Shown here: piece by piece, positions 1,451 through 33,575 of the stretch
Numbering within the stretch: the first letter of the stretch is position 1
Layout of the letters: every line of letters begins with the position of its first letter
Assembly: GCA_026398785.1 (NCBI GenBank)
Contig: JAPLSF010000002.1
Coordinates: 1-33,736, forward strand
Length of the DNA: 33,736 bases
Direction of reading: 5' to 3'
From: Pseudomonadota bacterium
GTDB taxonomy: Bacteria; Pseudomonadota; Gammaproteobacteria; Steroidobacterales; Steroidobacteraceae
Translations under genes and position numbers: made by a program
Notes under the pieces: generated by a model
What the model saw: the letters and a program-made list of their open reading frames with translations, nothing else
Databases searched by the model: none
Told to the model about the DNA's origin: nothing

Positions 1451-2242
1451 ATGAGCATGAACGCACTTCGAATCCTGATGCTCTGCACGGCATTTTCATG
1501 GCCGGTAGCACAAGCGGCCGATCCGGTGGACGCAGCCGTTGCCAGCGGTGCCGCGGTCGCCGCAGCCATTGCCAGCCCCGATCGGCCCAAGGCCGACCTC
1601 GAACGGGACGCCGTCGCCAAGCCGGCCGAAGTGCTTGCATTCATGGGTGTCGCGCCCGGCATGCGAGTGGCCGACATGTTCTCGGCCGGCGGCTACTACA
1701 CCGAACTCCTCGCCCGCACGGTCGGCGTGAAGGGCCACGTGATCGCGTACAACAACCCGCCGTACGCCAGGTTCGCGGAGAAGGGCATCGCTCAGCGCTA
1801 TGCCGACGGGCGGCTCGGCAACGTGCAGCAGATCACGGCCGAAGTAGGTGACTTGCAGCTGGCGCCGGCATCGATCGATGCCGCATTGTTCGTGATGAGC
1901 TACCACGACGCGTACTGGCGTCCGGAGGACGGCTCCTGGAACAAGACCAACCCGGACGAACTGCTCAAGCGGCTCTTCGCCGGGCTCAAACCGGGTGGCG
2001 TGGTCGTCGTCCAGGATCACGTCGCGAATCCAGGCGGTGACGTCGCCAAGGTGGTGGATACGCTGCACCGGATCGATCCGGTGCTCGTGCAGCGGGACTT
2101 TGCCAAGGCCGGGTTCGTCCTCGACGGCGAGAGCAAGGTGCTGGCGCACGCCGCAGACGACCATACCAAGCTCGTGTTCGACGAGTCCATCCGCGGCAAG
2201 ACGGACCAGTTCATCTACCGCTTCCGCAAGCCAATCCCCTAA
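1451..2242 (+). CDS. Exported class I methyltransferase-like protein
   Basis: This 263-residue protein has an N-terminal signal peptide (MSMNALRILMLCTAFSWPVAQA, cleavage likely before ADP). It then has a Rossmann-like fold typical of the predicted methyltransferases of COG4798. The SAM motif I region is VAPGMRVADMFSAGGYYTELLA at about residues 67-88, and a GLKPGGVVVVQDH strand follows near residues 180-192. A YHDAYW segment near residue 155 matches the family. The start is ATG 1451 after a GGGGGA stretch. A second ATG two codons later is possible. The gene is single, with 42 bases to the next gene. An export signal on a SAM-dependent enzyme is odd, because SAM is cytoplasmic. The glycine-rich loop is also degenerate. 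Substrate is unknown. A related gene lies at 13278-14168. Confidence 0.8.
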   Translation: MSMNALRILMLCTAFSWPVAQAADPVDAAVASGAAVAAAIASPDRPKADLERDAVAKPAEVLAFMGVAPGMRVADMFSAGGYYTELLARTVGVKGHVIAYNNPPYARFAEKGIAQRYADGRLGNVQQITAEVGDLQLAPASIDAALFVMSYHDAYWRPEDGSWNKTNPDELLKRLFAGLKPGGVVVVQDHVANPGGDVAKVVDTLHRIDPVLVQRDFAKAGFVLDGESKVLAHAADDHTKLVFDESIRGKTDQFIYRFRKPIP

Positions 2243-2284
2243 GATGCCGGCGCGCGGCGGTGGCTGCGCGTCAGGCTGTACAGA

Positions 2285-3061
2285 ATGGAACGGACGGTAT
2301 CCGCAGCGGGTGACGGAGTGCTGCGGCTCGCGATGTGGTCGGGTCCGCGCAACCTTTCGACGGCGTTTATGCGCTCGTGGGAAAACCGCGGCGACACGCT
2401 CGTCATCGACGAGCCGTTCTATGCGCACTACCTGAAAGTCACCGGCCTGGACCATCCCGGCCGCGACGAGATCATTGCGCACCAGGAATCCGACTGGCGT
2501 CGCGTAGCCGACTCGCTGCTGGCCCCGGTGTCGTCCAACATCCGGGTCTTTTACCAGAAGCAGATGTCGCACCACCTGCTGCCGCACATGGGGCGCGAGT
2601 GGCTCGACTCGGTGACACACGCCTTCCTGATCCGCGATCCGTCCGCGATGCTGGCGTCGCTCGGCGGCAAGCTCACGAATTTCGATCTGCTCGCCACGGG
2701 CCTGCCGCAGCAGGTCGAGATCTTCGAGCACGTGTTGCTGCGCACGGGCAAGGTGCCGGCCGTGCTCGACTCCGCCGACCTGCTCGAACGCCCCGAGCCG
2801 ATGCTGCGTGCGCTCTGTGCTGCGCTCGGAGTGCCGTTCACGGATCGGATGCTGTGGTGGCCCGCCGGGCGGCGTGAATCGGACGGTATCTGGGCCAGGC
2901 ACTGGTACGACCGGGTCGAGCGATCGACCGGCTTCGAAACGTCGTCGCCGAACACACCGGAGGCCGCTGCGGTGCAACCGCTTCCCCCCGCCGTCGCGGA
3001 GATCGCGGCGCGGTGCCGTCCCCTGTACGAGAGGCTGCGCGCGCACCGTCTGCGCGCCTGA
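2285..3061 (+). CDS. Sulfotransferase-like P-loop protein
   Basis: The 258-residue product begins with the phosphosulfate-binding type loop LAMWSGPRNLSTAFMRSW at about residues 15-32, the position and style seen in PAPS-dependent sulfotransferase-like proteins. A second conserved stretch, THAFLIRDPSAMLASL, near residues 111-126 matches the 3'-phosphate-binding Arg/Ser region of the fold (xxRDPxxxxxS). The remainder is alpha-helical with no membrane segment, so it is probably cytoplasmic. The start at ATG 2285 has only a weak upstream AGG. An internal ATG at 2333 would cut the P-loop strand and is less likely. The stop is 9 bases ahead of a class IV aminotransferase, so the two are almost certainly co-transcribed. 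Whether it transfers sulfate at all, and to what, is unknown. Confidence 0.75.
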   Translation: MERTVSAAGDGVLRLAMWSGPRNLSTAFMRSWENRGDTLVIDEPFYAHYLKVTGLDHPGRDEIIAHQESDWRRVADSLLAPVSSNIRVFYQKQMSHHLLPHMGREWLDSVTHAFLIRDPSAMLASLGGKLTNFDLLATGLPQQVEIFEHVLLRTGKVPAVLDSADLLERPEPMLRALCAALGVPFTDRMLWWPAGRRESDGIWARHWYDRVERSTGFETSSPNTPEAAAVQPLPPAVAEIAARCRPLYERLRAHRLRA

Positions 3062-3070
3062 GGTGATCCA

Positions 3071-4000
3071 GTGCTGCAGAAATTCGACGAACGTAATCGC
3101 AACCTGATCGTGAACGTCAGCGGCGAACTGGTGCATCGTGACCAGGCGCGCATCAGCCCGTTCGACTCGTCCGTGCAGGGCGGCGACGCAGTCTGGGAAG
3201 GGTTGCGGCTGTACAGCGGCCGCATCTTCCGGCTCGAACAGCACCTCGATCGCCTGGTGAATTCGGCGAAGGCGCTGGCGTTTGCGCAGATTCCGACGCG
3301 CGAGGCGATCACGCACGAGATTCGTCGCACGCTCGAGGCCAACGGGATGTTCGACGGCGTGCATATCCGCCTCACGCTCACGCGTGGCGTCAAGATCACC
3401 TCAGGGATGGATCCCCGGCTCAATACGCAAGGGCCGACCCTCATCGTGCTCGCCGAGCACAAGGTGCCCGTGTATGCGAAGGGAGGCCTGAGCCTGGTGA
3501 CCAGCAGCCTGCGGCGCTTCCCGCCCGACTGCCTGGACCCGAAGATCCACCACAACAATCTGGTCCAGTCGATCCTCGCCAAGATCGAGGCGAACGTGGC
3601 GGGTGCCGACGACGCGCTGATGCTCGATCAGCGCGGCTTCATTGCCGAGACCAACGCGACACACGTGTTCATCGTCCAGCAGGGTTTGCTGCGTACTCCG
3701 CGGCTGGTGGCCTGCCCGGAGGGAATCACGCGCGCGACCGTGCTCGAACTCTGCCGCACGCATGGCATCCCGCACGAGGAAGTCGATCTGACCCTGAGCC
3801 AGGCGTACTGCGCCGACGAGATGTTCTGCACTGGCACGATGGGTGAGCTCGCGGCGGTCACGAAGGCGGACGGCCGGCAGATCGGTGACGGCCAACCCGG
3901 ACCGCTGACGCAACGTCTGTCGGCATTGTTCCGCGAACTCACGGCGCGCGAAGGAACGATCGTGGCCCAAGCCCATGGCTGGCCTCGGGCAACAGACTGA
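3071..4000 (+). CDS. Class IV (branched-chain-type) PLP aminotransferase
   Basis: This 309-residue protein has the fold-type IV aminotransferase layout. QGGDAVWEGLRLYSGRIFRLEQHLDRL near residues 36-62 is the small-domain motif. The candidate PLP lysine lies in DPKIHHNNLVQSILAKIEA near residues 157-175. GFIAETNATHVFIV and CPEGITRATVLEL are the conserved cofactor-phosphate-binding loops. Enzymes of this family act on branched-chain amino acids, D-amino acids or aminodeoxychorismate. The KIHHNN lysine context differs from the classic IlvE KxxNYL, so substrate is not settled. The start is GTG 3071 with GAGGTGA just upstream, overlapping the preceding stop codon. It forms a two-gene unit with the sulfotransferase-like gene. 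It ends 11 bases from the convergent S-formylglutathione hydrolase gene. Confidence 0.88.
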   Translation: MLQKFDERNRNLIVNVSGELVHRDQARISPFDSSVQGGDAVWEGLRLYSGRIFRLEQHLDRLVNSAKALAFAQIPTREAITHEIRRTLEANGMFDGVHIRLTLTRGVKITSGMDPRLNTQGPTLIVLAEHKVPVYAKGGLSLVTSSLRRFPPDCLDPKIHHNNLVQSILAKIEANVAGADDALMLDQRGFIAETNATHVFIVQQGLLRTPRLVACPEGITRATVLELCRTHGIPHEEVDLTLSQAYCADEMFCTGTMGELAAVTKADGRQIGDGQPGPLTQRLSALFRELTAREGTIVAQAHGWPRATD

Positions 4001-4011
4001 CCGGTCTCAAC

Positions 4012-4854
4012 TCAGGCGTGACGCAGCGAAGCTGCATGGAATGCGACGTGGTCCGGCATGAAGGTCTGGATGAAGTAGTAGCCGTGGTCGTACTGCGCAT
4101 GACGCCGCAGCTGCAGCTTCTGTCCGGATCTTCCGCAGGCATCTTCAAAGAGTTCCGGCCGCAGTTGCTCAGCCAGGAATTTATCGCCGAGGCCCTGGTC
4201 GATCAGGATAGTGTCGGTACGTGGCGCCTGTTGCACTAGGTGCGTCGCGTCATAGGCCAGCCAGTCGCCGCGATTCGCGCCGAGGTAGTTGCCGAACGCC
4301 TTGTGGCCCCACGGCACCTGCGACGGCGCGACGATCGGTGAGAACGCCGACACCGACTGATACTGCTCCGGATTGCGCAAGGCGCAGACCAGCGCGCCGT
4401 GGCCGCCCATCGAGTGGCCCATGATCGATTGGCGGCCCGTATCGGCCGTCTTGAACTCGCGGGCGATCAGCGCGGGCAGTTCGCGCGTCACGTAGCTGTA
4501 CATGCGGTAGTGCGCCGACCACGGTGCCTGCGTCGCGTCCACGTAGAAGCCGGCCGCGAGTCCGCAATCCCAGCTGGCATCGTCACCGGGCAGTCGCGGC
4601 TCGCGCGGGCTGGTGTCGGGCGCTACCAGCATCAGGCCGTGCTCGGCTGCGCGCCGCTGCGCGCCTGCCTTGATCGAAAACGTCTCTTCCGTGCAGGTCA
4701 GGCCCGCGAGGTAGTAGAGCACGGGCACGGGACCGGCTTGCGCCTGCGGCGGTTCGTACACCGCGAACCGCATCGGGCCCGCACACTCGATCGACTCGTG
4801 CTGGAGGAAGCGCTGCGTACCGCCCCAACACGCGTGCTCTGAAAGTAGTTTCAA
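4012..4854 (-). CDS. fghA: S-formylglutathione hydrolase
   Basis: The enzyme hydrolyses S-formylglutathione to formate and glutathione, the second step of glutathione-dependent formaldehyde oxidation in the cytoplasm. The 280-residue length is normal for the esterase D family. The nucleophile Ser sits in GHSMGG near residues 146-151. The catalytic Asp is in the DQGLGDKFLAEQL segment near residue 225, and the His is in YDHGYYFIQ near residue 257. The family signature YLAGLTCTEETFSIKAGAQR is present near residues 48-67. The gene lies 9 bases downstream of the class III alcohol dehydrogenase gene on the same strand, the usual operon. No FrmR-type formaldehyde sensor is visible nearby. Confidence 0.96.
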   Translation of the reverse strand: MKLLSEHACWGGTQRFLQHESIECAGPMRFAVYEPPQAQAGPVPVLYYLAGLTCTEETFSIKAGAQRRAAEHGLMLVAPDTSPREPRLPGDDASWDCGLAAGFYVDATQAPWSAHYRMYSYVTRELPALIAREFKTADTGRQSIMGHSMGGHGALVCALRNPEQYQSVSAFSPIVAPSQVPWGHKAFGNYLGANRGDWLAYDATHLVQQAPRTDTILIDQGLGDKFLAEQLRPELFEDACGRSGQKLQLRRHAQYDHGYYFIQTFMPDHVAFHAASLRHA

Positions 4855-4863
4855 GCGGCAGCC

Positions 4864-5973
4864 CTAGAAGGTGACGACGGATCGAATCGACTCGCCGGAG
4901 TGCATCAAATCGAAGGCCTCGTTGATGCGATCGAGCGGCAGCGTGTGCGTGATCAGCGGATCGATCGCGATCCTGCCGTCCATGTACCAGTCGACGATCT
5001 TCGGCACATCGGTGCGGCCGCGAGCGCCGCCGAACGCCGTGCCCTTCCAGGTGCGGCCCGTGACGAGCTGGAAAGGCCGCGTCTTGATTTCCTGGCCCGA
5101 TCCTGCGACGCCGATGATGACCGACACGCCCCAGCCGCGATGGCAGCACTCGAGCGCCTGTCGCATCAGGTCGACGTTGCCGACGCACTCGAAGCTGTAG
5201 TCGGCGCCGCCATCCGTCAGCGCGACGAGGTAGGGCACGAGGTCGCCCTTTACCTCCTTCGGATTGACGAAGTGCGTCATGCCGAACTTCTCCGCGAGGC
5301 GCTTGCGGGCCGGGTTGATGTCCACACCCACGATCTTGTTGGCGCCGGCGAGCCGCGCACCCTGGATCACGTTGAGGCCGATACCGCCGAGTCCGAACAC
5401 CACGACATTCGCGCCCGGCTCGACCTTGGCCGTGTTGATCACCGCGCCGATGCCGGTCGTCACGCCGCAGCCGATGTAGCAGATCTTGTCGAAGGGCGCG
5501 TCTTCGCGGACCTTGGCGACGGCGATTTCGGGTAGCACGGTGAAGTTGGAGAACGTCGAGCAACCCATGTAGTGATGAATCTTCTCGCCGCCGAGTGAAA
5601 AGCGGCTGGTGCCGTCCGGCATCACCCCCTGGCCCTGGGTCGAGCGGATCGCCGTGCACAGGTTCGTCTTGTGCGACGTGCAGCTTTTGCACTCCCGGCA
5701 TTCCGGTGTGTAGAGCGGGATCACGTGGTCGCCCTTCCGCAGCGACTTCACGCCGGGGCCCACGTCCACCACGATGCCTGCGCCTTCGTGGCCGAAGATG
5801 ACTGGAAACAGGCCCTCCGGGTCAGCGCCGGAGCGGGTGAATTCGTCCGTGTGACAGACGCCCGTGGCCTTGATCTCGATCAGGACTTCGCCGGCCCTGG
5901 GTCCGTCGAGGTCCACCGTTTCGATGACGAGGGGCTTACCGGCCTGGTGGCAGACGGCGGCACGGGTCTTCAT
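4864..5973 (-). CDS. frmA: S-(hydroxymethyl)glutathione dehydrogenase / class III alcohol dehydrogenase
   Basis: This 369-residue zinc-dependent enzyme oxidises S-hydroxymethylglutathione (formaldehyde plus GSH) to S-formylglutathione with NAD. It has the expected order of motifs. GVCHTDEFTRSGADPEG carries a catalytic-zinc cysteine near residue 39. GHEGAGIVVDVG follows near 61-72, and four structural-zinc cysteines lie in CRECKSCTSHKTNLC near 92-106. The NAD Rossmann motif VFGLGGIGLNVIQGARLAGA is near 192-211. The length equals that of typical AdhC/FrmA proteins. The start at 5973 begins MKTRAAVCHQ. It is the first gene of a two-gene operon with the hydrolase, and shares a 148-base divergent promoter region with the VNGS-repeat gene. 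Confidence 0.97.
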   Translation of the reverse strand: MKTRAAVCHQAGKPLVIETVDLDGPRAGEVLIEIKATGVCHTDEFTRSGADPEGLFPVIFGHEGAGIVVDVGPGVKSLRKGDHVIPLYTPECRECKSCTSHKTNLCTAIRSTQGQGVMPDGTSRFSLGGEKIHHYMGCSTFSNFTVLPEIAVAKVREDAPFDKICYIGCGVTTGIGAVINTAKVEPGANVVVFGLGGIGLNVIQGARLAGANKIVGVDINPARKRLAEKFGMTHFVNPKEVKGDLVPYLVALTDGGADYSFECVGNVDLMRQALECCHRGWGVSVIIGVAGSGQEIKTRPFQLVTGRTWKGTAFGGARGRTDVPKIVDWYMDGRIAIDPLITHTLPLDRINEAFDLMHSGESIRSVVTF

Positions 5974-14310: not shown

Positions 14311-15936
14311 CTAGATCTCCTCCGGCTGCGTCCGGATCGCGCCGCACGGGCACTCCGAGACGCACAGCCCGCAACCCTTGCAATAGTCGTAATTGAACGC
14401 ATAGCGGTTGCCCGCGCCGAGCTTGATCACCGCATTGTCGGGGCAGACGCCGTAGCAGTTGTCGCACTCGAAGCAATTGCCGCAACTCAGGCAGCGCCGC
14501 GCTTCGAATTGCGCGGTCGCGGGATCGAACCCGCCGACCACTTCGTCGAACGTTGATTGCCGGCGCACAATGTCCAGCACCGGACGCTGCGCTTTCGGCG
14601 CGTCCGAGTAGTACCAGGTGTTGAGCTTGTCGAACGAGGCGAGTTCGTGGCGTGGCGGATGCGTCCAGGTTTCGCCGCGCAGCCAGGCATCGATGTTGCG
14701 GGCGGCGAGCTTGCCGTGGCCGATGCCGACCGTGACCGTGCGCTCGCCCGGCACCATGTCGCCGCCCGCGAAGATGCCCGCGTGGCCGGTCATCATGTTC
14801 GCGTCGACCTTGACCACGCCGCCGTCGATCTCCAGGCCTGGCACGCCGTCGAGCAACGCAAGATCCACGTCCTGGCCGAGCGCGAGCACGACCGAATCCG
14901 CTTGCAGCGTCTCGAACTCACCGGTCGGCTGTGCGATGCCTTTGTCGTCGAGCGTCATCTTCTCGACCGTGATCGACGACTCGCCGGCCTCGCGGATGGT
15001 CGAGAGCCACTTCACCAGTACTCCTTCCTGCAGTGCTTCTTCGAGCTCCGACTCGTGCGCCGGCATCTTCTCGCGCGTGCGGCGGTAGACGATCACGGAT
15101 TCCTCGGCCCCGAGCCTCTTCGCAGTGCGCGCGACATCGAGTGCGGTGTTGCCGCCGCCGTAAACGACGACGCGCCTGCCGAGCAGTGGCTGGTCCGCAC
15201 CCTCCATGCTACGCAGCACGGCGACGGCATCGAGCATCTTTCCGGCGCTGCCGGCCGGCAAATATGCGCGCTTGGCGATGTGTGCCCCGACCGCGAGAAA
15301 GACGGCGTCGAAATGGCCGTCGCGCTTCGCGGCGAGCACGTCGTCGACCTTCGAATTCAGCTCGAGCGTCACGCCGAGTCCGACGATGCGCGCGATCTCT
15401 GCGTCGAGCACTTCGCGCGGCAACCGGTACTTTGGGATGCCAAAACGCATCATGCCGCCCGCCAGCGGGCCGGCTTCGCGGATCGTCACGGTGTGACCGG
15501 CGCGCGCGAGCTGGTACGCGGCAGACAGGCCTGACGGACCTGCGCCCACCACCAGCACACGCATGCCCGTGGCCTTCGCGACCGGCGCGAATTTCCAGCC
15601 GTACTTCAGTGCCTCGTCGCCGATGAAACGCTCGATCGCGTTGACGCCTACGCATTCGTCCAGTTGGGCGCGGTTGCACGCCGTTTCGCACGGGTGATAG
15701 CAGACTCGGCCCATGCAGGCAGGCAGGGGGTTTGCTTCGGTCATCAGCCGCCACGCTTTCTCATAGTCGCCGGATTCGGCGTGGAACAGCCACCCCTGGA
15801 TGTTCTCGCCCGAGGGGCATGCGTCATTGCACGGTGGCAGGCGATCGACATAGACGGGGCGCACCGTCCGCCACGAACCCGTGTGGTTGGCAAGGCTCGA
15901 GCCGGGGTCGAGTGTGATCGCAAACGGTTTCTTCAC
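14311..15936 (-). CDS. GltD-like FAD/NAD(P) oxidoreductase fused to a 2[4Fe-4S] ferredoxin domain
   Basis: The 541-residue protein has four parts. An N-terminal GltD-type Fe-S region has cysteines in PPCNDACPSG, PACMGRVCYHPCETACNR and ECVGVNAIERF (residues 36-107). An FAD-binding fold follows with VLVVGAGPSGLSAAYQLARAG near 124-144. An NAD(P) fold has VVVYGGGNTALDVARTAKRLGA and the YRRTREKMPA basic patch (about 258-292), which favours NADPH. A C-terminal ferredoxin domain has CLSCGNCFECDNCYGVCP and CKGCGLCVSECPCG (about 476-530). It is last in the 2-oxoacid oxidoreductase operon, starting with GTG that overlaps the beta-subunit stop by four bases. It likely serves as delta subunit and passes electrons from the oxidoreductase to NAD(P). 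PadH/PadF of phenylglyoxylate oxidoreductase supply the comparison. Confidence 0.88.
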   Translation of the reverse strand: MKKPFAITLDPGSSLANHTGSWRTVRPVYVDRLPPCNDACPSGENIQGWLFHAESGDYEKAWRLMTEANPLPACMGRVCYHPCETACNRAQLDECVGVNAIERFIGDEALKYGWKFAPVAKATGMRVLVVGAGPSGLSAAYQLARAGHTVTIREAGPLAGGMMRFGIPKYRLPREVLDAEIARIVGLGVTLELNSKVDDVLAAKRDGHFDAVFLAVGAHIAKRAYLPAGSAGKMLDAVAVLRSMEGADQPLLGRRVVVYGGGNTALDVARTAKRLGAEESVIVYRRTREKMPAHESELEEALQEGVLVKWLSTIREAGESSITVEKMTLDDKGIAQPTGEFETLQADSVVLALGQDVDLALLDGVPGLEIDGGVVKVDANMMTGHAGIFAGGDMVPGERTVTVGIGHGKLAARNIDAWLRGETWTHPPRHELASFDKLNTWYYSDAPKAQRPVLDIVRRQSTFDEVVGGFDPATAQFEARRCLSCGNCFECDNCYGVCPDNAVIKLGAGNRYAFNYDYCKGCGLCVSECPCGAIRTQPEEI

Positions 15937-16940
15937 GTCGCTTCCTCCGCGTGGTCGACCAGGCCGAAGCGCTTCACGTTGCGATCGGCAAGCGCTTGAA
16001 TCCGTGCGACGAGGTCCGCATGGCCCGGCGGCTTGAACAGGTGCGCGAACCGGGTTTGTGGCTTCAGGTAATCCTCGACCGGCAACTGCCGCCGGATCTT
16101 CGACACGTGCTTCACTTCACCGTGTTCGGCCTCGAAGACCGGAAACAACCCCGTCTCGTGCGCGAGTCGTGCCATCTTGATGGTCTCGGCGGAACCGTGA
16201 CCCCAGCCGAGCGGGCAGGGAACGAGCACGTGGATGTACCGCGCGCCGCGGAATTCCATGGCGCGCCGCACCTTGGCTTCGAGGTCGCGGAGTTCGGCCA
16301 CCGTTGCCGTTGCGACGTATGGAATCTCATGGGCCATGGCGATGAGCGGCAGGTTCTTGCCCTGGCCAAAACGGGCGCCGGTCGATTCACCAACCGGCAT
16401 CGTCGTGTTGGTTCGTGCGGTCGGCGGCGTGGCCGACGAACGCTGCACGCCCGTGTTCATGTACGCCTCGTTGTCGTAGCAGATGTAGAGCACGTCGTCG
16501 TTGCGTTCGAACATGCCTGACAGGCAGCCGAAGCCGATGTCGGTCGTACCGCCATCACCGCCTTGCGCAACGACGCGCACGTCACGTTTGCCCTGCACTT
16601 GCAGCGCCGCCGCGATACCCGTTCCGACGGCAGCCGCGTTGCCGAACAGCGAGTGAATCCAGGGAATCTGCCACGACGTTTCGGGGTAGGGCGTGGAGAA
16701 CACTTCCAGGCAGCCCGTGGCGTTCGCCGCGACGAGCTGGCGGTTCGTCGCCGCCATGGCTGCGTCGATCGCATAACGCGCGCCGAGCGCTTCACCGCAA
16801 CCCTGGCACGCGCGGTGTCCTGAATTGAGCGAGTTGGTGCGCTCACGACCTGATTGCACGGAGCGCTGTTCTTCCGTTAGCAGCCGGTTGCCGACCGTGA
16901 AAGTGCCGGTCTGGTAGAAGCGAATGGGTTGGTAGCTCAT
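15933..16940 (-). CDS. porB: 2-oxoacid:acceptor oxidoreductase beta subunit (TPP-binding)
   Basis: This 335-residue protein carries the thiamine diphosphate site of the pyruvate/2-oxoacid oxidoreductase family: GDGGTTDIGFGCLSGMFERNDDVLYICYDNEAYMNTGVQRSSATPP near residues 127-171. Cysteines at about 45 and 48 (ACQGCGEA), 77 (ATGCLEVF) and in VPCPLGWGHG match the four ligands of the subunit's [4Fe-4S] cluster. The MNTGVQRSSATP signature is typical of pyruvate-type enzymes, but the substrate could also be another 2-oxoacid such as phenylglyoxylate. It starts 10 bases after the alpha-subunit stop and overlaps the following flavoprotein start. It has a longer N-terminal extension (about 40 residues) than minimal PorB proteins. 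Confidence 0.92.
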   Translation of the reverse strand: MSYQPIRFYQTGTFTVGNRLLTEEQRSVQSGRERTNSLNSGHRACQGCGEALGARYAIDAAMAATNRQLVAANATGCLEVFSTPYPETSWQIPWIHSLFGNAAAVGTGIAAALQVQGKRDVRVVAQGGDGGTTDIGFGCLSGMFERNDDVLYICYDNEAYMNTGVQRSSATPPTARTNTTMPVGESTGARFGQGKNLPLIAMAHEIPYVATATVAELRDLEAKVRRAMEFRGARYIHVLVPCPLGWGHGSAETIKMARLAHETGLFPVFEAEHGEVKHVSKIRRQLPVEDYLKPQTRFAHLFKPPGHADLVARIQALADRNVKRFGLVDHAEEAT

Positions 16941-16950
16941 GCGTTGCGCC

Positions 16951-18204
16951 TCATCCGATCTTCGCGGCGACGACGCCGAGGTCCTTGAGGATGCCTTCCG
17001 CGATCGGTCCCGAGCGGCGATGCGCTCGCTCGCGTTCCAGCACGCGGTCGACCAGTGCCCGATCGAGATCGAGGAAGGTCAGGGGCTCGAGCGAGTCGGC
17101 CAGCGCCTGCCCGAAGACGCGGTGCAGCGAACCGCGCGTGATCGATCGACCACCGAGGCCGGCGATCACCGTGTGCACGCGATCCGACGCGCCGGCGAAC
17201 GACGCTGACACGTTGTTGCCGACGATGCCGCCCATGCCCACTGCCAGGCTCTTTTCGAGCACGACCACACGCTTCGCCCTTTGCAGGGCAGCACGGACGG
17301 CCACGGCCGGCCACGGCCGGAAGCACGTGATGCCGAGCACGCCGATCTTTTGCCCCTGCTCGCGCATCTCGTCGACCGTATCCTTGACGGTGCCGAGCAC
17401 GGAGCCCAGGGCGACGACGATCACGTCGGCGTCGCTGGTGCGGTATTCGTGCACCAGGCCACCGCTCGGTCGCCCGAACACGCGGCGGAATTCATCCGCC
17501 CAGGCGGGGATCAGTTCGAGGGCCTGCTGCTGCTTCGCGTGCGCGAGGTACCGCACTTCCATGAACGCTTCGGGACCGACCATGGCGCCGATCGAGACGG
17601 GATCTGCGGGATCGAGCACCTGTCGCGGCTCGTACGGCGGCAGGTACGAATCCACTTGCGCCTGTGTCGGCATGTCCACGCGCTCGTACGCGTGCGTCAG
17701 GATGAAGCCATCCATGCACACCATGACCGGCAGCGAGAGTTCTTCCGCGAGCCGGAAGGCCTGGATATGCAGGTCGAGCGCTTCCTGGTTGTCCTCGGCG
17801 AACAACTGCAGCCAGCCGCAGTCGCGCTGGCTGAGCGCGTCGGTGTGGTCGTTCCAGATGTTGATCGGCGCGCCGATCGCGCGGTTGGCAACCGTCATCA
17901 CGATCGGCAGGCCGAGGCCCGCTGCGTTGTATACCGCCTCCGCCATGAACAGCAGGCCCTGGCTTGCCGTCGCCGTGTAGGCGCGAGCCCCGGTCGCCGA
18001 AGCGCCTATCGCAACGGACATCGCCGCGAACTCCGACTCGACGTTGACGAACGCGCACGGCGTCAGTTCGCCGGCATCCACCCGCCGTCCGAGCGCCTCG
18101 ACGATGTGGGTCTGCGGCGAGATCGGATACGCGCAGATGACCTGCGGGCGGCAGAGCGCAATGGCTTCCGCAACCGCAGCCGAACCTTCAACCTGCTTGA
18201 GCAC
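16951..18204 (-). CDS. porA: 2-oxoacid:acceptor oxidoreductase alpha subunit
   Basis: The 417-residue subunit begins with LKQVEGSAAVAEAIALCRPQVICAYPISPQTHIVEAL, the pyrimidine-binding domain of the PFOR superfamily. It continues with VNVESEFAAMSVAIGASATGARAYTATASQGLLFMAEAVYNAAGLGLPIVM (residues 53-105). Domain II includes VIVVALGSVLGTVKDTVDEMREQGQKIGVLGITCFRPWP near residues 265-303. The length and order match separate-chain PorA. Together with the beta and gamma subunits it would oxidatively decarboxylate a 2-oxoacid to an acyl-CoA. It overlaps the gamma-subunit gene by 17 bases, a sign of translational coupling. Confidence 0.93.
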   Translation of the reverse strand: MLKQVEGSAAVAEAIALCRPQVICAYPISPQTHIVEALGRRVDAGELTPCAFVNVESEFAAMSVAIGASATGARAYTATASQGLLFMAEAVYNAAGLGLPIVMTVANRAIGAPINIWNDHTDALSQRDCGWLQLFAEDNQEALDLHIQAFRLAEELSLPVMVCMDGFILTHAYERVDMPTQAQVDSYLPPYEPRQVLDPADPVSIGAMVGPEAFMEVRYLAHAKQQQALELIPAWADEFRRVFGRPSGGLVHEYRTSDADVIVVALGSVLGTVKDTVDEMREQGQKIGVLGITCFRPWPAVAVRAALQRAKRVVVLEKSLAVGMGGIVGNNVSASFAGASDRVHTVIAGLGGRSITRGSLHRVFGQALADSLEPLTFLDLDRALVDRVLERERAHRRSGPIAEGILKDLGVVAAKIG

Positions 18205-26526: not shown

Positions 26527-27516
26527 TCAAACGGGCAGGGCGACAACGAGTGCCGCGAGCTTGCTTGCGTCCGCATCGAAGGCGCGGATTCCTTCCGCGA
26601 GTTTCTCGGTGGCCATCGCGTCTTCGTTGTGCTGCCAGCGAAACGCCGGTTCGTCGAGCGGCATGCGTTCAACGTTGCTCGAGCGCGCGCTTGCGACGGT
26701 CAGCTTCGCCTCCACCTCGCCCGTGGTCGCTGCGAGCTTCTGCAGCAGGTCGGGACTGATCGTGAGCAGGTCGCAGCCCGCGAGGTCCGTGATCTGCGTC
26801 GTCTTGCGAAAGCTCGCGCCCATGACCTGGGTGCGATGCCCGAACTTCTTGTAGTACTCATAAATGCGCGTGACCGATGCAACGCCCGGATCGTCGGCAG
26901 GAGCGATGTCTGCGACGCCGCGGGAATTCCTGTACCAGTCGTAGATGCGGCCGACGAAGGGCGAGATCAGCGTGACGCCGGCGTCGGCGCACGCCACCGC
27001 CTGCGCAAAGCTGAACAGCAGCGTGAGGTTGCAGTGGATGCCGTCGCGCTCGAGTCGTTCGGCGGCCTTGATGCCTTCCCAGGTGCTGGCGATCTTTATG
27101 AGGATGCGTTCGCGTCCGATGCCGCCTGCATCGTAGAGGTCGATGAAGCGGCGCGCCTTGCTCTCGGTCGCTGCGGCATCGAAGCTGAACCGCGCATCGA
27201 CCTCCGTTGATACCCTTCCAGGCACGAGCGCGAGGATTTCGCGCCCGAAGCCCACGAACAGGTGCTCGAGGACCGCTTCGTTCCAGCGGGCCGCGGAGCG
27301 TGAACCTGCGGCTGCGAGTGCGGCCTGCACGAGGTGCTGGTAACGCCCGCCCTGCGCCGCCTTGAGGATCAGGCTGGGGTTCGTCGTTGCGTCCTGCGGT
27401 CGGAAACGTGCGATCGAGTCGATGTCGCCGCTGTCCGCCACGATCACGGAGTGCCGGCGCAGGGATTCCAGTTGGCTCGTCACGGATGCTGCACTTGCAC
27501 GCTTCAGTACGGCCAT
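26527..27516 (-). CDS. tal: Transaldolase
   Basis: The 329-residue enzyme interconverts sedoheptulose 7-phosphate plus glyceraldehyde 3-phosphate with erythrose 4-phosphate plus fructose 6-phosphate. The signature [14 protein letters not shown] lies near residues 42-55, the Schiff-base lysine in [45 protein letters not shown] near 139-183, and [25 protein letters not shown] near 237-261. It is the TalA/TalB type by length. The start at 27516 ([19 protein letters not shown]) lies 13 bases inside the end of the phosphoketolase gene, so the pair is translationally coupled. Confidence 0.96.
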
Positions 27517-29900
27517 TTCCAGTCGCGTTCGGCGGGGCGGTCGATGCCGTGCTCGTGCGCGTAGTTGCGGCACTCGATCTGCAGGTTGCGGAGTTTCTCC
27601 TTCACGTGTGCGCCCGCCACCTGCAGCCTCGGCACGCGATCGATGACGTCGATCGCGAGGCTGAAGCGGTCGACTTCGTTGTTGATCGCGAGCTCGAGCG
27701 GCGTGTTGATGTTGCCCTTTTCCTTGTAACCGCGCACGTGCAGGTTCGCGTGGTTGCGGCGCCGGTAGGCGAGGCGGTGGATCAGCCACGGGTAGCCGTG
27801 GAAGTTGAAGATGATCGGCTTGTCCGTGGTGAACAGCGAGTCGAAGTCGCGGTCGGACAGCCCGTGCGGGTGTTCCTTGGGCGGCGTAAGCTTGTACAGG
27901 TCCACGACGTTCACGAAGCGGACCTTGAGATCGGGGAAATGCTGCTGGAGCAGCGCGGTGGCAGCGAGTGCCTCCTGCGTCGCGATGTCGCCGCAGCCTG
28001 CCATGACGACTTCCGGCTCGGCGCCCTGGTCGTTGCTCGCCCAGTCCCAGAGGCCGACGCCCTTGCTGCAATGCTTGATCGCGGCGTCCATGTCGAGGTA
28101 CTGCAGGTGCTGCTGCTTGTCGCAGACGATGACGTTGATGTTGTCGGTACTGCGCAGGCAGTGCTCCGACACCGCGAGCAGGCAGTTCGAATCCGGCGGC
28201 AGGTAGATGCGTGTCACGGTCGGGCTCTTGTTGACGACCACGTCGAGGAAGCCCGGATCCTGGTGCGTGAAGCCGTTGTGGTCCTGCCGCCAGACGGTCG
28301 AGGTGATCAGCAGGTTGAGCGACGACACTGACGCGCGCCACTGGATCTCTTCGCAGATGTCGAGCCACTTGGCGTGCTGGTTGAACATCGAGTCGATCAC
28401 GTGCACGAACGCTTCGTAGGTCGAGAAGAAGCCGTGGCGTCCGGTGAGCAGGTAGCCTTCGAGCCACCCCTCGAGTGTGTGCTCGGAGAGCATCTCCATG
28501 ACGCGGCCGTCGGATGCGAGCTCGCCGCCGTCGGCGTCCACCGGCAGGTAGTCCGCGAGCCAGGTCTTCTTGCTCGCCTGGTACACCGCGTCGAGCTTGT
28601 TCGACGTCGTCTCGTCCGGGCCGAACACCCGGAAGTTGTCGAGGTTGAGCTTGAGTATGTCGCGCAGGAATTCACCGAGCCGGCGCGTGTTCTCGGCCTC
28701 CGACCCGCCTGGCTTCTTAACCGCAACGGCAAAGTCCCGGAAATCAGGCATGCGCAATGGGCGGCGCAATTGGCCGCCGTTGGCGTGCGGATTGGCGCTC
28801 ATGCGGCGCCGGCCCTGCGGCGCCAGTGCCTTCAGCTCCTGGATCAGCTGGCCGTTCGCGTCGAACAGTTCCTGCGGGCGGTAACTTTTGAGCCACTTTT
28901 CGAGCAGCTTGAGGTTCGCCGGGTTGTCGCGCACATCCGACAGCGGCACCTGGTGCGCGCGCCAGTAGCCCTCGACGGCATGCCCGTTCACTTTCTTCGG
29001 TCCCGTCCAGCCCTTGGGACTGCGCAGCACGATCATCGGCCACCGTGCGCGCACCGCCTTGCCGGTGCGGCGCGCCTCCGACTGGATGCGACGGATCTCC
29101 TGCACGCAGCGCTCCATCGTTGCGGCCATGAGCGCATGCATGGTCATCGGGTCGTCGCCTTCGACGAAATGCGGGGTCCAGCCGTAACCGCGGAACAGGC
29201 TGTCGAGCTCCTCGTGTGAAATGCGCGCGAGGATCGTCGGGTTGTTGATCTTGTAGCCGTTCAGGTGCAGCACCGGCAGCACGGCGCCGTCGCGCACCGG
29301 GTTCAGGAACTTGTTCGAGTGCCAGGCGGTGGCGAGCGGACCGGTCTCGGATTCACCGTCGCCGACGACGACGGTCACTAGCAGGTCCGGGTTGTCGAAC
29401 GCCGCACCGAATGCATGCGAAACGCTGTAGCCGAGCTCGCCGCCCTCGTGGATCGATCCCGGGGTTTCGGGCGTGCAGTGGCTGCCGATGCCGCCGGGAA
29501 ACGAGAACTCCTTGAAGAACTGCCGCAGGCCTTCGATGTCTTCTCCCTTGTTGGGGTAGATCTCGGCGTAGGTGCCCTCGAGGTAGACAGGCGCCAGGAC
29601 GCCGGGAGCGCCGTGTCCCGGTCCGGCGAGAAAGATCGCGTCGAGGTCGTACTTCCGGATCAGGCGGTTCAGGTGGACATAGGTAAAGCTGAGGCCGGGA
29701 CTGGCGCCCCAGTGGCCAAGGAGCCGGCTCTTCACATGTTCCGGCTGCAGCGGTTCGCGCAGCAACGGGTTGTCGCGCAGGTAGATCATGCCGGCCGCCA
29801 GGTAATTGCAGGCGCGCCAATACGCATCGATCTGCCTGAGTTCGGTCGCCGTGACTGCTGCGTTGCGGCCCGGGGCCGTGCGTCCTGCCTGCTGCGCCAT
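27504..29900 (-). CDS. xfp: Phosphoketolase (xylulose-5-phosphate / fructose-6-phosphate)
   Basis: The 798-residue thiamine diphosphate enzyme cleaves xylulose 5-phosphate or fructose 6-phosphate with phosphate to acetyl phosphate plus glyceraldehyde 3-phosphate or erythrose 4-phosphate. Family signatures are clear: [87 protein letters not shown], and near the C-terminus [26 protein letters not shown]. The start is taken at 29900 (MAQQAGRT), because GAGGAAGAG sits just ahead. The frame continues 13 codons further upstream without protein-like sequence. Transaldolase follows with a 13-base overlap. No acetate kinase or phosphotransacetylase is seen in the window. Confidence 0.96.
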
Positions 29901-30036
29901 TTCTTCTCTTCCTCGCTGCGATGGTTGTCCTTGTAGCATCCAATAGAGTCGCGCGAGATACCAGACTCAAGCACTGATTCGCGGCAGCGAGACGCGCGGT
30001 AACATAAGTGCAATCGAATTCAGGGAGCGTCAGGCC
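29901..30036. promoter_or_regulatory. Divergent intergenic region between phosphoketolase and DUF481 genes
   Basis: These 136 bases separate divergent genes and should hold the phosphoketolase promoter and the DUF481 promoter. The only site that I can assign is the GAGGAAGAG Shine-Dalgarno sequence ahead of the phosphoketolase start and CAGGGAG ahead of the DUF481 start. Confidence 0.4.
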
Positions 30037-32474: not shown

Positions 32475-33575
32475 ATGGGTCGTCAAGAAACTTTCTATGA
32501 GTTGATCCGCCGCCAGGGTATTTCGCGGCGCAACTTCCTGAAGTTCTGCTCGCTGAGCGCCGCCTCGCTCGGGCTCGCACCTCACTTCGCCGGCAAGATC
32601 GCGCATGCGATGGAAACCAAGCCGCGAGTTCCAGTCATCTGGCTGCACGGCCTCGAGTGCACGTGCTGCACTGAGAGCTTCATCCGTTCCGCGCACCCGC
32701 TGGCCAAGGACGTGATCCTGTCGATGATCTCGCTCGACTATGACGACACGATCATGGCCGCCGCGGGTCACCAGGCCGAGCAGGCAATCGCCGATGTCAT
32801 GCGCGACTACAAGGGTCAGTACATCCTTGCAGTCGAAGGCAACCCGCCGCTCGGCAACGACGGCACCTTCTGCATCCCGGGCGGCCGTCCGTTCGTGGAG
32901 AAACTGAAGGAGACTGCTGCGGACGCCGCTGCCGTGATCGCGTGGGGCTCGTGCGCCTCGTGGGGTTGCGTGCAGGCTGCCAAGCCCAACCCGACGACCG
33001 CGGTGCCGATCCACAAGGTCATCAAGGACAAGCCCATCATCAAGGTGCCGGGCTGCCCGCCGATCGCCGAAGTCATGACCGGCGTGATCACGTACTACGT
33101 GACTTTCGGCGCGTTGCCGGCGCTTGATCGCCAAGGCCGCCCGCTGATGTTCTACGGTCAGCGTGTGCACGACAAGTGCTATCGCCGCGGCCACTTCGAC
33201 GCCGGGCAGTTCTCCGAGACCTTCGACGACGAAGGCGCGCGCAAGGGCTACTGCCTCTACAAGGTGGGGTGCCGCGGGCCGACGACCTACAACGCCTGCT
33301 CCACCACGCGCTGGAACGAGGGTGTGTCGTTCCCGATCGGCTCCGGTCACGGTTGCCTCGGCTGCTCAGAGCCGGATTTCTGGGATAACGGGCCGTTCTA
33401 CCAGCGCCTCGAGACCTTCCCGCAGTTCGGCGCCGAAGCGACGGCGGTCAAGGTCGGCGCGGCGGCGGCGGCGATCGTGGGTGTCGGCATCGCGGCTCAC
33501 GCAGGCCTCACGGCGCTGCGCCAGGCCAAGGTGAAGCCGAACAGCCCCGTTGCCTCAGATGACCGCGTCGTTTGA
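32475..33575 (+). CDS. hyaA: [NiFe] hydrogenase small subunit, oxygen-tolerant group 1d type
   Basis: This 366-residue subunit carries electrons from the NiFe site through three Fe-S clusters. A Tat signal [10 protein letters not shown] is near residues 17-26, with cleavage after AHA (residue 45). Residues 62, 64, 65, 160, 165 and 194 are Cys ([25 protein letters not shown]). Subtracting 45 gives 17, 19, 20, 115, 120 and 149, the exact six-cysteine set of the [4Fe-3S] proximal cluster in E. coli Hyd-1 and Ralstonia MBH. Medial and distal cluster ligands lie in [26 protein letters not shown] and GHGCLGC. A C-terminal membrane helix (about 327-350) anchors it in the periplasmic membrane face. 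The large-subunit gene follows after 19 bases. The gene may equally be named hoxK or hupS. Confidence 0.96.

Follow-up and report, generated by a model that had tools for sequence, protein, structure and literature searches.

The locus described here joins a gene for a sulfotransferase (ST) to a gene for an aminotransferase homologue (ATL), and relatives have been described for each of the two proteins. Class IV branched-chain aminotransferases, such as E. coli IlvE and the proteins of PDB entries 5mqz and 5e25, share with ATL the fold, the phosphate cup and Glu193. ATL differs from IlvE (numbered counting Met) in that the catalytic Lys is replaced by His, Phe37 by Trp, Tyr96 by His and Tyr165 by Leu or Gln, and in its new K108 and C215. 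The solved protein closest to ATL by sequence is the 'aminotransferase-like protein from Variovorax paradoxus' (PDB 7z79; mutant N174K, PDB 9j32), which belongs to the same lysine-less clade and has the same fold, with 44% identity and a Z of 31.7 to the ATL model. However, 7z79 carries a type II-like Asn at the lysine site, where the ATL of the locus has His, and its neighbours in the tree come from G222 and G247, two genomes without a match to the sulfotransferase profile PF19798. Tyrosylprotein sulfotransferases and the sulfotransferase domains of CurM and of olefin synthases, on the other hand, share PAPS-type motifs and fold with ST. By analogy only, ATL also resembles ColD and E1, which act on nucleotide sugars, show a Lys-to-His exchange like that at H160 of ATL, and have fold type I (aspartate-aminotransferase-like), which differs from that of class IV. 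These nucleotide-sugar 3-dehydratases are presented as aminotransferase relatives whose catalytic lysine has become a histidine, and the family works with His in place of Lys by using PMP and expelling a hydroxyl group (PMC8987622). A fold search with the ATL model returned class IV type enzymes, and no fold type I entry, among the 50 matches listed.

In plants, the 'branched-chain aminotransferase-like' proteins At3g05190 and At5g27410 (the latter presumably Q9ASR4) would be fusions of a sulfotransferase-like part with a class IV part, in the same order as the genes of the locus, and the bacterial pair might, as the initial annotation suggests, be their unfused ancestor. No paper was found under these two locus names in the open-licence literature. 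The one paper found with the accession Q9ASR4 places it in a tree of ADC-lyase homologues. PF19798 is one of nine profiles used in a plant survey, whose available sections name only SULT, TPST, NFST and algal CHST subfamilies (PMC12506393), and elsewhere it appears in a table only (PMC11625862). The open-licence literature yielded no functional study of the ST/ATL pair, of the function of PF19798, or of a lysine-less protein, 7z79 included.

The locus and its sulfotransferase

The window, that is, the whole stretch of 33,736 nucleotides analysed, contains both genes on the + strand. ST is encoded at 2285-3061 (258 aa, ATG start) and ATL at 3071-4000 (309 aa, GTG start); they are separated by 9 bases (3062-3070), and a candidate ribosome-binding site, GAGGTGA at 3060-3066, could serve ATL. 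The initial annotation had described two adjoining genes at this position, and both ORFs proved to be real: since their relatives stand side by side in many genomes, a chance pair of ORFs is excluded. A 622-aa ORF over the same bases on the minus strand (1496-3364) is taken as a high-GC shadow frame. The upstream gene (1451-2242) has weak methyltransferase matches, below the Pfam cut-offs, and a scan for promoters and terminators found none. Directly downstream, on the minus strand at 4012-5973, lie genes for an S-formylglutathione hydrolase and a glutathione-dependent formaldehyde dehydrogenase. Further along the window are genes of the 2-oxoacid:ferredoxin oxidoreductase type (14311-18204; POR_N and a TPP enzyme C-terminal domain) beside an oxidoreductase with a Fer4_20 domain, a phosphoketolase (XFP) gene at 27504-29939 next to a long frame on the minus strand that encodes a transaldolase domain (26527-28467), and, near the end of the window, a gene for a NiFe-hydrogenase small subunit (32475-33575).

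The assignment of the first gene to a sulfotransferase family was confirmed by its match over 2285-3061 to PF19798, Sulfotransfer_5 (E 1.1e-55; 188.9 bits against a cut-off of 23.2). The true start of ST is uncertain, because the matches of most relatives begin at residue 12-14. A structural model of the protein (mean pLDDT 91.7) is matched best in the PDB by the folds of TPST1/2 and the CurM sulfotransferase domain, and also by olefin-synthase sulfotransferase domains, with a Z of about 14 and 12-16% identity; a sequence search of the PDB found no credible relative, only weak matches to antibodies and one P450. Three segments on the + strand hold residues that are invariant in 67 aligned rows. 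The first, AMWSGPRNLST (2330-2362), with A16, W18, G20-R22, S25 and T26 invariant, is probably the 5'-phosphosulfate-binding loop, equivalent to a P-loop, a role assumed from its position and from the GPRNxST-type form of the motif. The second, K92...H97 (2558-2575), with K92, M94 and H97 invariant, is probably a catalytic Lys/His segment, by comparison with SULT-type enzymes. The third, R117...S125 (2633-2659), with R117, P119 and S125 invariant, is probably the 3'-phosphate-binding motif, its Arg and Ser standing eight residues apart as in SULTs.

By its predicted fold and invariant motifs, ST would be a PAPS-type sulfotransferase, and it looks competent. APS kinase is present in 21 of the 22 genomes with ST in a sample of Pseudomonadota, including that of the window (G032 is the miss), and also in 11 of 14 control genomes, so that its presence indicates only that PAPS can be made. 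None of 109 pattern matches examined for viral relatives of ST was confirmed. Two loci (L023, L024) contain divergent second PF19798 copies, with 29-32% identity to the ST of the window and a WAVPRSTST loop; within 1.5 kb of these copies no aminotransferase homologue was found.

An aminotransferase homologue without the catalytic lysine

The product of 3071-4000 (+ strand), a member of the type I clade, matches the Pfam profile PF01063, Aminotran_4 (E 3.4e-46; 158.3 bits against a cut-off of 28.5), and its AlphaFold model (mean pLDDT 84.5) is matched by class IV structures over 263-284 residues, with a Z of 32.1 to 5e25. The class IV fold expected for the second gene is thus borne out by both profile and structure. 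Against NCBIfam, ATL falls under the cut-off of each of the 23 families that it matches (for example, 262.8 against 363 for PRK08320, and 201.5 against 245.55 for TIGR01122), a shortfall that by itself is weak evidence against an ordinary aminotransferase.

When E. coli IlvE is aligned with these proteins, its catalytic PLP lysine, K160 (numbered with Met), corresponds to H160 of ATL (3548-3550, + strand). Among copies in the window's gene order, ST followed by ATL (ST>ATL), 42 of 43 have His at this site and one has Asn (L027), while in the reverse order (ATL>ST) the site is Asn in 44 of 45 copies and blank in the remaining one, a fragment. The initial annotation had called the second gene an aminotransferase, and in the sense of a working enzyme this is not supported, the catalytic lysine being absent from 87 of 88 coupled copies and the 88th being that fragment. 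Nine of the genomes supplied 34 other class IV rows; Lys stands at the site in 28 of them and Asn in six, and these six are unlinked ATL partners (family f49); a further 57 rows from genome searches show 27 His, 25 Asn and five Lys. Lysine is kept in all 33 other class IV proteins read. Over the whole alignment the site reads His in 69 rows (the window and 68 others of the clade), Asn in 76 and Lys in 33, IlvE included, these groups being defined by the letter itself. Two rows were left out of them: L150, in which the lysine is shifted by one column (T in the large alignment, K in an earlier one), and L081, which is blank there. With one fragment counted in, the lysine-less rows number 146 and represent about 123 distinct sequences, and 145 of them have a letter at the site.

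The assignment of H160 finds independent support in 7z79. Its N174 aligns to the lysine site, and the title of 9j32 names the mutant N174K, so that the depositors took the same position for the site of the lysine. When the lysine segment is left out of the tree, one branch sets off all His rows (local support 99, FastTree) and another all Asn rows (local support 100), and the minimum number of changes suffices to separate His, Asn and remaining rows. A smaller tree of 70 rows sets the 38 lysine-less proteins apart by one branch (SH-aLRT 98), which fits a single loss. On these two trees, both obtained by quick or FastTree searching with no bootstrap and both with long branches among the rows that keep the lysine, the lysine of the Schiff base seems to have disappeared a single time, in an ancestor of the clade. 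Another class IV protein of the window's genome (L125; G000:C357:11343-12002) keeps the Lys but is unique among the lysine-bearing rows read in having Cys where Glu193 would be.

The missing lysine bears directly on the simplest reading of the locus, in which a canonical branched-chain aminotransferase would stand beside an unrelated sulfotransferase by chance. The best NCBIfam subfamily for ATL is indeed a branched-chain aminotransferase model, and the nearest folds include many such enzymes. However, with the lysine absent, the NCBIfam scores below the cut-offs, the adjacency to ST conserved and the two proteins co-occurring in two phyla, this reading is hardly credible. More generally, profile libraries match the lysine-less proteins best to branched-chain aminotransferases, a label that their own active site contradicts.

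The remainder of the pocket is partly conserved and partly remodelled. Four elements correspond to positions with known roles in enzymes of this class. Three belong to the phosphate cup: R61 (3251-3253, + strand; R60 of E. coli IlvE), an Arg in all lysine-less and lysine-bearing rows that have a letter there; T220-R221 of the GITR motif (3728-3733, + strand), present in 145 of 145 lysine-less rows; and G255-T256 (3833-3838, + strand), with G in 145 and T in 144 of 145. The fourth, E193 (3647-3649, + strand), would be the equivalent of the Glu at the pyridine nitrogen, and it is kept in type I and replaced by Thr or Ser in type II. The PLP phosphate cup (Arg59, Thr221 and Gly256-Thr257 of IlvE without Met) and Glu193 are therefore all kept in type I, and R61, T220 and G255-T256 of the cup are kept in both types. 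Three further positions are specific to the clade. W42 (3194-3196, + strand; Phe37 of IlvE counting Met) is Trp in all 144 lysine-less rows that have a letter and Phe or Tyr in all 33 lysine-bearing rows, IlvE included; H98 (3362-3364, + strand; Tyr96 of IlvE) is found in 145 of 145 lysine-less rows and no lysine-bearing row; and K108 (3392-3394, + strand) is Lys in 141 and Arg in four of the 145 lysine-less rows. Together with Glu129, Asn195 and Cys215, these residues (Lys or Arg at 108) are common to at least 143 of 145 lysine-less rows across both types, and Trp42, His98, Lys108, Glu129, Asn195 and Cys215 were found in none of the lysine-bearing rows, where Arg108 was not tallied. The loop that bears K108 is poorly predicted in the AlphaFold model, so that its placement in the active site comes from the alignment. 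Both types have a His within the former lysine segment: it is H160 in type I and, for 75 of the 76 rows of type II, H162. Position 164 is Lys or Arg in type II and Leu or Gln in type I. Mean identity among type I ATL copies is 68%, against 55% among their STs. Decay of ATL is improbable, as there is almost no variation in the phosphate cup or in the clade-specific residues of the pocket.

It might be supposed that ATL still transaminates in a non-canonical way, by a migrated lysine or a PMP/PLP half reaction, and that the pair makes a sulfated amino or keto acid, which is close to the view of the initial annotation. The conserved cup, Glu193 in type I, the basic residue at 108 that is new in the clade and the Lys or Arg at 164 of type II are in keeping with this. 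On the other hand, four of 145 rows have Arg instead of Lys at 108, and so do 14 of the 76 type II rows at 164, and Arg cannot form a Schiff base. Position 164 holds Leu or Gln in type I, and the Glu is missing from type II. Such transamination is accordingly judged quite unlikely.

Inheritance of the pair

Relatives of ST were sought in one genome from each of 84,980 species, and the best 80 of at least 587 relatives were used. ST and ATL occur on one strand in one locus in 73 of these 80 best named loci, with their matches at most 100 bases apart in 63 and at most 1,261 apart in all 73. The organism names among the 80 span Proteobacteria, Planctomycetota, Verrucomicrobia, Acidobacteria, Gemmatimonadetes, Chloroflexi and Actinobacteria. 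The initial annotation had proposed to look for conservation as neighbours or as fusions across bacteria: the neighbourhood is conserved across phyla, but no ST-ATL fusion was flagged among the 80 best named bacterial loci. In the seven loci without ATL alongside, the contigs of two (L109, L110) end just past ST; four others have a lysine-less ATL elsewhere in the genome (L051, L071, L085 and L069, four of the five named genomes with the genes apart), and for the last, L120, a lysine-less ATL was not found in the genome. The two gene orders match two ATL clades (42 and 46 rows), with L027 as the exception, in which the window's order is combined with the other clade; the order of L022 was read as ATL>ST by the placement of its matches, as was that of L025 in the same genome. 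The ST tree tracks gene order only roughly, with 12 changes for three labels; this tree and the one that shows the two ATL clades also come from quick or FastTree searching with no bootstrap.

Clustering of the ORFs in 100 related loci found no other gene family that recurs with comparable breadth. The clusters that cover at least 62 of the 100 loci are made up of frames that overlap the ST/ATL pair; any other ORFs in them come from no more than 12 loci per cluster. The next cluster beyond the pair covers 13 loci, further ones at most 13. With no other pathway gene linked to the pair, nothing points to the substrate. As a unit of two genes with no other broadly recurring neighbour, the pair is easy to test.

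The two genes are also inherited together where they lie apart. In 299 genomes of Pseudomonadota, ST was found in 22 and a lysine-less ATL in 25, the site being read for all 25 (24 and the window's own), and all 22 are among the 25. The remaining three (G222, G247 and G280; loci L189-L191, L191 being that of G280) have no PF19798 match. Six of the 22, which all belong to family f49, have no ATL within 1.5 kb of ST but a lysine-less one elsewhere. Of 199 Planctomycetota genomes, 29 have ST and 28 have a lysine-less ATL, every one of the 28 being among the 29, with five matches of 242-244 bits (G475, G394, G311, G474, G429) counted as ordinary by score, without the site being read. Among the 28, the genes are adjacent in the window's order in 21 and in reverse in one, 2-3 kb apart in two and on other contigs in four; G424 has ST, and no lysine-less ATL was found in it. 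With genomes taken as independent though they are related by ancestry, Fisher's test gives p = 2.0e-30 for Pseudomonadota and 2.8e-33 for Planctomycetota.

Co-inheritance of this kind might arise if ATL were a pseudoenzyme, that is, a scaffold, a substrate-presenting subunit or a regulatory subunit of ST, which would sense an amino acid or PLP and catalyse nothing itself. This is the main rival. The lysine is gone from all 145 lysine-less rows with a letter, and the strictness of co-inheritance is such that a physical complex would explain it. Moreover, within-type distances of ST and ATL correlate (r 0.77 for 42 type I pairs and 0.40 for 44 type II pairs, with none of 2000 permutations as high), although shared descent alone can yield such values. 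Set against this are the very strong conservation of the pocket and its concerted remodelling, the three of 25 Pseudomonadota genomes that keep ATL without ST, and the unlinked genes of some genomes. On balance a pseudoenzyme is not very probable.

The reaction proposed

The reading preferred here, held at about an even chance, is that the two genes form a stand-alone metabolic unit, in which a PAPS sulfotransferase and a lysine-independent partner that is not a transaminase act on one small molecule. In a first step, ST would move a sulfuryl group from PAPS to the small molecule, as its conserved motifs and predicted fold suggest. In a second, ATL would act on the same molecule or on its precursor, by a reaction other than transamination; two successive steps are the most economical reading. 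As the phosphate cup is kept, ATL probably still binds PMP/PLP, or another phosphate or sulfate ligand, non-covalently. A role as both acid and base could fall to the His of the former lysine segment (type I, H160; type II, H162), by analogy with ColD and E1, and the invariant basic residue at 108 may bind a sulfate or carboxylate group. The likeness to ColD and E1 is suggestive in the case of type I and weaker in that of type II. Type II is without both the lysine and Glu193, so that one PLP/PMP chemistry shared by both types is not obvious.

Some genomes speak against a two-gene unit. Lysine-less ATLs occur without ST in the three Pseudomonadota genomes named above, with 7z79 placed beside those of the first two in the tree; G424 and L120 have ST with no lysine-less partner found; and G032 has ST with no APS kinase match.

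A bolder form of the proposal extends it to a lysine-free family of fold type IV, widespread in bacteria (and in plants, if the fusion is real), that would use PMP or PLP without an internal aldimine, with His as acid/base and with a substrate activated or marked by a dedicated PAPS sulfotransferase, the sulfate possibly being the leaving group; in this extended form it is considered unlikely. A cysteate or taurine route, with ST making a sulfonated amino acid, was also considered and set aside as speculation, no literature having been found that ties such a route to PF19798.

A clade without its defining lysine, its pocket nearly unchanged across phyla and its members inherited with a PAPS-type sulfotransferase, would mark a defined and undescribed reaction. 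If the plant fusions belong to the same unit, plants too carry out this reaction, and the names of their genes are likewise wrong.

Some minor observations concern the three ATLs from Pseudomonadota without a PF19798 match. That of L189 (8076-9119) adjoins genes for a solute-binding protein, a permease and an ABC ATPase, and that of L190 (7438-8367) is accompanied by ORFs homologous to those beside the L189 gene. The ATL of L191 groups in the tree with the unlinked f49 copies.
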